Below are positions 3,672 to 24,720 of a stretch of DNA of 35,957 nucleotides, in pieces; positions within the stretch are counted from its first letter, which is position 1, and each line of letters starts with the position of its first letter. The notes under the pieces were generated by a model. The model saw only the letters and a list, made by a program, of their open reading frames with translations. It ran no database searches and was not told the origin of the DNA. The DNA is taken from positions 1-35,957 of the forward strand of contig JAPLAT010000320.1 of assembly GCA_026393175.1 (NCBI GenBank), given 5' to 3'. The translations under genes were made by a program, and so were the position numbers. The DNA is from Pseudonocardiales bacterium. GTDB taxonomy: Bacteria; Actinomycetota; Actinomycetes; Mycobacteriales; Pseudonocardiaceae.

Positions 3672-4505
3672 ATGGCTCTGCGGGCGGTGACGGCGATCCG
3701 CTACGTCACCCCGCTGCGCGAGGGCGGCTCGCTGCCCGGCGTGATGGAGGCCGACGACCTCGGCACCTACGCCGTGAAGTTCCGCGGGGCGGGGCAGGGG
3801 CCCAAGGTGCTGGTCGCGGAGGTCGTGGCGGGTGAGCTCGCCCGGGCGCTCGGGCTGCCCGTGCCGGAGCTCGTCACCGTCGACCTGGACCCCGCGCTCG
3901 GCGCGGCCGAGCCCGACCAGGAGGTGCAGGAGCTGCTGCGCGCCAGCCCCGGGCTCAACCTGGGGGCGGACTTCCTGCCCGGCGCGCTGGACCTCGACCC
4001 CGCCGCGTTCTCCGTCGACCCCGGGTTCGCCGGGCGGGTGCTGTGGTTCGACGCGCTCGTCGGCAACGTCGACCGGTCCTGGCGCAACACCAACATGCTG
4101 TTCTGGCACGGCGGCCCCTACCTGATCGACCACGGCGCCACCCTGACGTTCCACCACGACTGGGCGGGCGCCGCGGCGTGGGTGACCCGCCGCTACGACG
4201 CGCGCGAGCACGTCCTGCTCGGCGCCGCGCCCGACCTCGACGCCGCCGACGCCGAGCTGGGGCCGCGGGTCACCGGCGAGCTGCTGGCCCGCGTGGCGGC
4301 ACAGGTGCCGGACGAGTGGCTGGCCGGCGAGCCCGCCGGGACGCCCGACGGGCTCCGCGCCGGGTACGCCGCCCAGCTCGCGGCGCGGCTCGCCGCGCGC
4401 GAGGCCTGGCTGCCGGGGGTCCGCGACGCCGTCGCCGCCTACGCCGCCCACCCGCCCGACCGGGCCGTCGACCCGCTGGCCCGCTACACCCGGCGGCCGC
4501 GGTGA
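3672..4505 (+). CDS. HipA-like (PI3/4-kinase-fold) protein kinase, orphan
   Basis: GTYAVKFRGAGQGPKVLVAEVVAGELARALGLPVPE; LVGNVDRSWRNTNMLFW (catalytic N-x-D-R..N) and YLIDHGATLTFHH (metal-binding ID motif). Confidence 0.8.
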   Translation: MALRAVTAIRYVTPLREGGSLPGVMEADDLGTYAVKFRGAGQGPKVLVAEVVAGELARALGLPVPELVTVDLDPALGAAEPDQEVQELLRASPGLNLGADFLPGALDLDPAAFSVDPGFAGRVLWFDALVGNVDRSWRNTNMLFWHGGPYLIDHGATLTFHHDWAGAAAWVTRRYDAREHVLLGAAPDLDAADAELGPRVTGELLARVAAQVPDEWLAGEPAGTPDGLRAGYAAQLAARLAAREAWLPGVRDAVAAYAAHPPDRAVDPLARYTRRPR

Positions 4506-4912
4506 GGCACCCGTTCGAGTACGCCGTGCTGCGGGTCGTGCCGCGCGTCGAGCGGGGGGAGTGCCTCAACGCCGGGGTGCTGCTCTACTGCCGGCCGCTG
4601 GAGCACCTCGGCGCCCGGGTGCACCTCGACCCCGACCGGCTCGCCGCCCTCGACCCCGCCGCCGACCCGGTGGCGATCACCCGCGTCCTCGACGCGGTGG
4701 TGGCGCTGTGCGACGGCTCCACGGCCGGGGCCCGGTACGCCGGGCCGGCCGGGGCGGAGGACCGGGGCAGGCGCTTCCGGCGGCTCACCGCCCCGCGCAG
4801 AACGATCGTCCAGCCCGGGCCGGTGCACACGGGCCTCACCACCGACCCCGAGGCCGATCTGACCCGCCTGCTCGAGACCCTCGTCCTCCCCCCACGCCCC
4901 ACCCCCGCCTGA
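4502..4912 (+). CDS. DUF3037-type protein
   Basis: VRHPFEYAVLRVVPRVERGECLNAGVLLYCRPLEHLGARVHLDPDRLAALDP...; GTG start overlaps upstream TGA (GTGA); within ORF 4043..4912. Confidence 0.8.
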   Translation: MRHPFEYAVLRVVPRVERGECLNAGVLLYCRPLEHLGARVHLDPDRLAALDPAADPVAITRVLDAVVALCDGSTAGARYAGPAGAEDRGRRFRRLTAPRRTIVQPGPVHTGLTTDPEADLTRLLETLVLPPRPTPA

Positions 4913-4916
4913 CGGC

Positions 4917-5321
4917 CCCGCACCCCCCGCGAGTCGGGGCCTGGGCGCGCACGAGTCGGGCCCTCGGAGCCCGCGAGTCGGGGTGTGGGAGTGCGCGAGT
5001 CGGGGCGTGGGTGCGCCCGAGTCGGGCCCCGGCACCCCGCGAGTCGGGGTGTGAGTGCGCACGAGTCGGGGTCCACGGGCCCGACTCGCGCACGGTGGGG
5101 GCCCGACTCGCGCACGGTGGGGGCCCGACTCGCGCACGGTGGGGGCCCGACTCGCGCACGGTGGGGGCCCGACTCGCGCGCGGTGGGGCCCCGACTCGCG
5201 CACGGTCAGGCCCCGACTCGCGCGCGGTGGGGCCCCGACTCGCGCACGGTCAGGCCCCGACTCGCGCACGGTGGGGGCCCGACTCGCGCACGGTGGGGGC
5301 CCGACTCGCGGGGGTGGGTGG
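4917..5321. repeat. Mirrored 22-bp tandem array: 7 units (GAGTCGGG orientation) then 11 inverted units (CCCGACTC orientation)
   Basis: GAGTCGGG starts at 4931, 4953, 4975, 4997, 5019, 5041, 5063; CCCGACTC starts at 5080, 5102, 5124, 5146, 5168, 5190, 5212, 5234, 5256, 5278, 5300 (all spaced exactly 22 bp). Dyad centre near 5075. Confidence 0.97.
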
Positions 5322-5322
5322 G

Positions 5323-5808
5323 TCAGCCGGCGGCGGCGGCCAGGCGGGCGACGGAGGCGCGCATCTGGTCCTCGCTCACGCGCGGGTAGAGGCCCAGGGC
5401 GTTCTCGTCCCGCACCCCGGACCAGTCGTAGGTGTGGGTGACGCGGGTGCCGCCGTCGCCGGTCGGCTCGAGCTCCCAGGCGTAGGTGTGGCCGCTGGGG
5501 TCCAGCTCTCCGATGACGTGGGACAGGGAGCCGGCCGGGTGGATCGCGGGCGCCCAGGCGATGCGCCGCCCGTCCTCGAACGCGACGACCTCGCTGCGCA
5601 TCGTGTAGTCGCCGATGCCGTCCTGGTTCATCCGCATGACGAACGCGTCGCCGACGCCGGTGACCGGGGTGTCGCCGGACTCGAGGCCGCGGAGCATGCC
5701 CGCGCCGTCGAGGTCGGTGTGCCGCGCGGGGTCGGCCAGCAGCGCGAAGAGCCGCTCGGGCGGCACCGGGACGGTGTCGCTGACCTGCAGTGCCCTGACC
5801 TCTGCCAT
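5323..5808 (-). CDS. SRPBCC family (polyketide cyclase/START-like) protein
   Basis: MAEVRALQVSDTVPVPPERLFALLADPARHTDLDGAGML...GGTRVTHTYDWSGV; alternative start at 5820. Confidence 0.85.
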   Translation of the reverse strand: MAEVRALQVSDTVPVPPERLFALLADPARHTDLDGAGMLRGLESGDTPVTGVGDAFVMRMNQDGIGDYTMRSEVVAFEDGRRIAWAPAIHPAGSLSHVIGELDPSGHTYAWELEPTGDGGTRVTHTYDWSGVRDENALGLYPRVSEDQMRASVARLAAAAG

Positions 5809-5900
5809 GCGGACCTCCATCGACGCTGATGTGTCGTGCACGACCATCCACCCACGCGCCGCTGTGGCCGTCAAGCGGGGCCATGCCCTTGGATGGGGTG

Positions 5901-24016: not shown

Positions 24017-24309
24017 GGCCAGGGGTACCCGCGGTCGTCGCGCGGGACACGCGGGTCCTCCGGAGGCGGGTCGGTCCCCGGACCGCCGGCCGATCGCCGC
24101 GCCGACGTCGACCTTCGCGCGCCGGCCAGTCCCGCGTGCGACGCCGGCGCGCGTGGGAGACCGCCGAGCGCGCGTCGACAGGACGAGCGCGCGGCGGCGC
24201 GACCCACCCACCCGTCGCCGGCGGCCGCTCCGTCGGCGGGCCCGCCCCGGTCTTTCCCCGCCCCGGTCGTCCCCTGCCCCGGCCGTCCCCGCCCCGGTCG
24301 TCCCCCCCG

Positions 24310-24720
24310 TCAGTTCCCGGCCGGGACGGGCGGTGGGGCCGGGGACGCGGACCGGGTCGTGGCCGGGGTCGCGGTCGGTGTCACCGTCGGGGTCGCTGTC
24401 GCGGACGGGACCGGAGAAGGGATCGTGGGGACGGTCGGGGCGCCGCTCGGGTCCGGTTGCTGGACGACGCTGGGCACCGCGGCCGGGGGCAGCGGTGCCC
24501 CGGTGAGGGGCACGGGCGCGGTCTGCGGCCGCACCCCGCACCCGGCGACGACCACCGCGGCCGCCGTGACGGCGACGAGGAGCCCGGCCGCGCGCCGCGC
24601 CGCCCGCCCGGGGGCCGCTCGCCCGTGGTCCGTCCGCCCGGATGCTGTCCGTCCCGGGGCCCGCCCGGACACCGTCCGCCCGCGGCCGACGCGTCCCGGG
24701 CCCTGCCGCCGGCCGGTCAC
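24310..24720 (-). CDS. Small lipoprotein with Pro/Thr-rich tail
   Basis: AGLLVAVTAAAVVVAGCGVRPQ lipobox (VAGC); starts in a 4-nt overlap with the histidine kinase stop. Confidence 0.7.
   Translation of the reverse strand: MTGRRQGPGRVGRGRTVSGRAPGRTASGRTDHGRAAPGRAARRAAGLLVAVTAAAVVVAGCGVRPQTAPVPLTGAPLPPAAVPSVVQQPDPSGAPTVPTIPSPVPSATATPTVTPTATPATTRSASPAPPPVPAGN

Follow-up and report, generated by a model that had tools for sequence, protein, structure and literature searches.

The window, that is, the whole stretch of 35,957 bp that was analyzed, contains a gene for a DUF3037 protein (PF11236; 4502–4912, forward strand) and a gene for an SRPBCC-type (Polyketide_cyc2/AHSA1) protein (5323–5820, reverse strand; start codon approximate) that converge on a gap, between the stops at 4912 and 5323, occupied by a mirrored array of short repeats. 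The left arm (4930–5070, forward strand), located 3' of the DUF3037 gene, consists of 7 units of CGAGTCGGG with cores at 4930+22n, the first of them 18 bp beyond the stop; the right arm (5080–5308, reverse strand), located 3' of the SRPBCC-type gene, consists of 11 units that read CCCGACTCG on the forward strand, with cores at 5080+22n, the last of them 15 bp from the stop. The two oppositely oriented series each keep an exact 22-bp register, TRF assigns period 22 to both arms, and the orientation switches between 5070 and 5080. All 18 copies of CCCGACTCG/CGAGTCGGG in the window fall inside 4930–5308, whereas shuffled windows contain 2.1 ± 1.6 copies, 10 at the most, and none reaches 18. The original prediction, in which 18 units (7 + 11) on exact registers flipped orientation near 5075 between convergent DUF3037 and SRPBCC genes, agrees with our recount and domain assignments on all these points. 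It had also held that the core alone is conserved in the left arm, which describes that arm best (linker identity between units 0.53, as against 0.78 in the right arm), and that a 9-mer core is invariant, which is the case in 18/18 window units but does not extend to the genus, where the shared core is the 7-mer GCGAGTC.

Both arms carry an outer cap, identified by sequence and folding. In the left cap (4925–4939, forward strand), the C-run ahead of the first core can pair as CCCCG-CGAGT-CGGGG, a fold that is weak alone (z −0.3 for the cap region), and the right cap (5300–5312, reverse strand), CCCG-CGAGT-CGGG on that strand, is a weak fold as well. The region 4700–5500 contains 0 terminator-like sites (GC-rich hairpin with a U-tract) and yields 0 matches to the Rfam 15 covariance models up to E = 1.

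Within 3687–4912, a HipA-like kinase gene (PF20613) overlaps the start of the DUF3037 gene. At about 60% identity, relatives of the DUF3037 protein occur widely in Streptomyces and Actinomadura; a Pseudonocardia MAG, whose 7.4-kb contig piece lacks an array, is among the nearest named non-Streptomyces sources (59% identity), and Pseudonocardia is our guess at the genus from these relatives. Elsewhere in the window (24241–24687), short GC-rich tandem repeats with periods of 12–27 (TRF) form a cluster unrelated to the 22-bp array.

Distribution and unit structure

The search of the genome and its relatives proposed in the original prediction finds such arrays recurring throughout both. The genome that harbors the window (G000; 5.5 Mb, 712 contigs) contains 221 unit pairs of the form CCCGACTCG-N13-CCCGACTCG (109 + 112), with 0 in the reversed-sequence control. 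Five of its draft contigs (C92, C263, C315, C345, and C160) have an end inside or close to an array, which makes these counts lower bounds; the arrays probably fragment assemblies. The 9-mer form is present in 17/37 genus genomes, and the GCGAGTC-N15-GCGAGTC form in 25–338 pairs in 24/37, in 1–6 pairs in 3, and not at all in 10 (control, 0–2). The genus-wide pair search thus superseded the 9-mer as the essential core, and the 9-mer is a dialect of the genome at hand and some related genomes. On a prs DNA tree, array presence needs 8 changes and extends to the deepest genus branch (G010/G012). Outside the family, 24 genomes sampled elsewhere in the order contain 0–1 GCGAGTC-N15-GCGAGTC pairs each.

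A restriction of the arrays to one genus, suggested by the 9-mer search only, was overturned by a three-unit GCGAGTC search of 111 genomes of the family, which returned matches in other genera (84 in G426, 31 in G330, 32 in G478, and 22 in G491, with different linkers) and none in 102/111. For G326 (genus g28), where the reversed control gave matches, a variable-gap search detects about 85 pairs with the core CCTGAGCGTTCGAC on one chromosome, almost all at 22 bp; its 22-bp arrays, seen at L322 and L328 and in some cases mirrored, are built on the unrelated core CCTGAGCGTTCGACACTCGGGA, and gene context was viewed at two loci. A search of plasmid sequences gave no match, and a match on a viral contig (L171) is, judging by its sequence, apparently a chance repeat inside a phage coding sequence. 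A literature search, mostly outside subscription journals, returned nothing on such arrays in Pseudonocardia.

The spacing of the units is nearly invariant, although the linkers diverge: in loci fetched from 11 genomes, 657/673 core-to-core steps are 22 bp, and among single steps in eight genus genomes, 584/593 are. Adjacent units show 1120 linker differences in 431 comparisons (mean 2.6 of 15 bases), against 16/673 non-22 steps, so that substitutions are roughly a hundred times as frequent as length changes, an excess that probably surpasses the usual indel share of noncoding change. In G000, most of the columns flanking CGAGTC that lie outside the search pattern are 95–100% conserved, compared with about 45–71% for linker and middle columns; the contrast is similar, with other letters, in G009, G012, and G034, and weaker in G004. 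When units of G012 are chosen by their spacer, 25/26 retain the 9-mer core, whereas among pairs chosen by the core, the spacer is retained in only 57/157. These observations, along with a core and period common to 24 species of the genus, support the earlier proposal of constraint on a phased core as opposed to plain slippage. In a passive minisatellite, unit length, and core relative to linker, would be unconstrained; here, nearly all steps are 22 bp and box columns are better conserved than linker columns in most genomes, although a recombination mechanism could itself fix the length.

A C-run precedes the outermost core in 55–75% of arms in G000, G012, G024, and G033, compared with 1–13% of inner units. 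This enrichment was not found in G034, and in G009, G330, and G426, inner units carry the C-run too. Loci L181–L186 of G011 differ from the 22-bp arrays of its relatives in having single-core and 20/21-bp forms in which each unit comes with a C-run.

Gene ends, folding, and orthologous loci

Tabulation of gene orientation at each locus, also proposed at the outset, places the arrays at 3' ends and away from divergent promoters. With genes called by a home-made, unpublished codon-usage caller that may miss small genes, the array-bearing gaps in the fetched loci of eight genus genomes, at dozens of gene ends, are 49 convergent, 65 tandem, and 5 divergent, whereas gaps of 60 bp or more without an array, counted over these loci, are 36 convergent, 133 tandem, and 125 divergent. 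Arrays are depleted in divergent gaps (5/119 vs 125/294; Fisher p = 6e-17). Arrays lie at a median of 9–35 bp from the closest stop depending on the genome, about 18 bp in most, and 13 arms lie inside called genes. In other genera, the 20 array-bearing gaps comprise 9 convergent, 8 tandem, and 3 divergent ones, with larger distances in G426, where one array (L338) lies downstream of a canonical hairpin with a U-tract. The original prediction had named intragenic occurrence, unit numbers unrelated to the dyad, and absence from relatives as signs of a passive repeat or a one-off expansion; arrays are rarely intragenic and no one-off, and unit number is independent of the dyad.

Among single arms, the nearest gene has GCGAGTC on its coding strand in 59 cases and on the opposite strand in 25. 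The preference is strong in G012 and absent or reversed in G034 and G004, so a fixed orientation relative to the gene is not supported as a general feature. A replichore polarity (KOPS-like), suggested by early lists, was dropped because those lists cut reverse matches short and the G009 and G012 lists are mixed.

The mirror or cruciform is likewise unsupported as a general feature: single arms make up the majority of elements, and the mirrors that do occur are in some cases reversed. As RNA, mirrored pairs greatly surpass their shuffles in folding (median z −10 for >< and −7 for <>), whereas the median for single-arm elements is 0 (146 foldings, both strands), and for these reasons we rejected the idea that the arrays work in general through a cruciform or a giant RNA hairpin. 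Strong local hairpins are rarer at array-bearing than at array-free ends of the same genomes, both convergent (6% vs 26%, p 9e-4) and tandem (8% vs 23%, p 0.05); the z values here are relative to dinucleotide shuffles, which, for sequence as repetitive as the arrays, may introduce a bias.

At some orthologous 3' ends, arrays recur across species. Inspection by eye of the 3' end of prs reveals an array in G000, G004, G007, G011, and G018 (with other core flanks in G004 and G018), a degenerate array in G030, a 21/22-bp repeat GGCGAGTTTGCC in G006, and plain inverted repeats instead in, for example, G010, G013, G020, G024, G028, G033, and G036. In G024 and G028 (L228 and L238), a near-identical long perfect hairpin, GTGAGTGGCGATAGTCGC...GCGACTATCGCCACTCAC, which may be a separate repeat family, occupies the array position of other species. 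Among a few other such ends, for example, the gene for a class I tRNA synthetase (probably ileS) has an array at its 3' end in both G012 and G025, and the G000/G012 pairs L116/L135 and L151/L157 likewise have arrays at orthologous ends, all with genome-specific linkers; these cases are few and the comparison is informal.

Candidate explanations

The window array belongs to a family of phased 22-bp arrays dispersed among many related soil actinobacteria, probably the Pseudonocardiaceae. With motif and spacing kept across species while the intervening letters change, these sequences suggest a DNA-recognition element of gene ends that has not been described before. Given that a conserved core, a fixed pitch, and a free linker form the expected pattern of a phased protein-binding array, we tentatively lean toward a protein that would bind the DNA in phase and form a barrier to transcription where genes end, a reading that we hold to be plausible, if short of probable. 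The unit would comprise a box of roughly 14 bp centered on CGAGTC and a free linker of roughly 8 bp, the box being the putative site for a sequence-specific DNA-binding protein that would fill the array cooperatively, with about two helical turns to each unit. Once filled, an array 3' of a stop codon would end or insulate transcription between neighboring transcription units, and a convergent gene pair would have one arm for each gene, hence the mirror. The family itself, its period, the box/linker contrast, the 3'-end placement, the depletion of divergent gaps, the 3' ends shared by some species, and the paucity of strong hairpins at array-bearing ends are read from the sequences; from there, we infer protein binding, its oligomeric mode, and the barrier function. 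The placement together with the exchange with hairpins suggests action at transcript ends, and the occurrence of both orientations fits DNA binding better than an RNA signal. Several observations count against the barrier. The G426 array behind a hairpin with a U-tract indicates that arrays need not be the terminator; the 59:25 bias of single arms is more than an orientation-blind barrier would need; the ten genus genomes without the core show that it is dispensable; the placement rule is looser in other genera, with 3/20 gaps divergent; and 22 bp is about 2.1 turns, such that exact same-face phasing would drift along long arrays. A broader version of the barrier, a family-wide gene-end system in which a putative oligomerizing protein recognizes a rapidly drifting box, spaced at a fixed 22 bp behind genes, to end or insulate transcription, and in which protein and box co-evolve into dialects (GCGAGTC in several genera, CCTGAGCGTT in g28) at constant pitch, appears unlikely as a whole; if real, it would be a protein-and-array alternative to hairpin terminators.

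The arrays could instead be a functionless, passive or selfish minisatellite that spreads by slippage and gene conversion, is homogenized within each genome, and survives nowhere but 3' of genes, since it would not be tolerated in promoters or coding sequence. We regard this main rival of the barrier as doubtful, yet as close to it in weight: linkers are genome-specific, the distribution is patchy (none in ten genomes of the genus, and 8 changes on the prs tree), promoter avoidance would also yield the deficit in divergent gaps, and one G426 array sits behind a terminator hairpin that is complete already. A passive repeat, however, does not readily account for a core and a 22-bp length that persist across species and genera with fully diverged linkers, for the conservation of box columns above linker columns within genomes, for arrays that lie so near the stop codon (in most genomes, at a median of about 18 bp), or for their recurrence at orthologous 3' ends, and the constant length would be unexplained unless a copying mechanism fixes it. 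Even if passive, the arrays would form a bacterial minisatellite family of unusually constrained length, one that annotators should know of and that probably breaks assemblies.

Two further explanations appear improbable to us. The transcribed array could fold into mirror stems and C-run caps and act as an RNA-level 3' element, through intrinsic termination that lacks a U-tract or through protection of mRNA 3' ends, as proposed for REP elements. The strong folding of mirrored elements (median z −10 and −7) is as expected for such an element, as are the outer caps CCCG-CGAGT-CGGG ahead of 55–75% of arms in four genomes, the plain hairpins at the prs end of other species, the orientation bias of single arms, and the many hairpin 3' ends without U-tracts in Streptomyces (PMC8269248), but most elements are single arms with a median fold z of 0, local hairpins are fewer at array-bearing ends, the opposite orientation is common in G034 and G004, and pairing explains neither the conserved core nor the fixed pitch; a hairpin role limited to mirrored elements is possible. 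A nucleoid, supercoiling, or segregation site, at which a bound protein organizes the chromosome or absorbs supercoils between convergent genes without ending transcription, draws on the same core and pitch evidence as the barrier and on the over-representation of convergent gaps (49/119 with arrays vs 36/294 without); weighing against it, and making it scarcely probable, arrays are as common in tandem as in convergent gaps, the full lists show no replichore polarity, and the arrays are dispensable in ten genus genomes.

Known repeat and terminator systems

REP/BIME elements of Gammaproteobacteria and other bacteria are present in many dispersed copies in convergent and same-direction gaps, often tens of bases from a stop, and form lineage-specific types with pairs in both orientations (PMC3733652, PMC12306157). 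The 22-bp arrays also lie outside genes, close to 3' ends, and favor convergent and same-direction over divergent gaps (49/65/5), but differ in their head-to-tail arrangement at fixed 22 bp and in inner units that form no hairpins above chance. Their units do not behave as hairpin-forming palindromes: single arms have z 0, only mirrored pairs fold, and the window caps are weak. The RAYT/Y1 transposase domain (PF01797) has no match in G000, G007, G010, G011, G012, G018, G024, G033, or G034, and is found in the array-bearing G020 and G022 as well as in G003, G008, and G015, which have few or no arrays; we rejected RAYT/REP mobilization because the domain is undetected in most array-rich genomes. 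Intrinsic and I-shaped (U-lacking) terminators resemble the arrays in their location just past stop codons and in the hairpins found elsewhere at the same prs 3' end, but the window array lacks a U-tract, single arms fold at chance, and sequence and spacing are conserved. Neither a RAYT transposase, nor an Rfam family, nor a U-tract terminator accounts for the arrays.

A dispersed, phased, lineage-coded gene-end array would be a concrete, testable candidate for the way in which transcription is ended and neighboring genes are insulated in GC-rich actinobacteria, where U-tract terminators are scarce. A pitch of 22 bp retained with two different cores would also be unusual, in that spacing is rarely better conserved than sequence. 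Among tandem repeats, the MIRU/ETR elements of mycobacteria are similarly intergenic and dispersed, in contrast to the 22-bp units, however, MIRU units are described as several times longer, and we know of no 22-bp phased box in them. A functional analogy comes from the Sal-box/TTF-I arrays, repeated protein-binding boxes behind eukaryotic rRNA genes that stop the polymerase; given the different domain of life, binder, and sequence, the likeness is one of analogy only.
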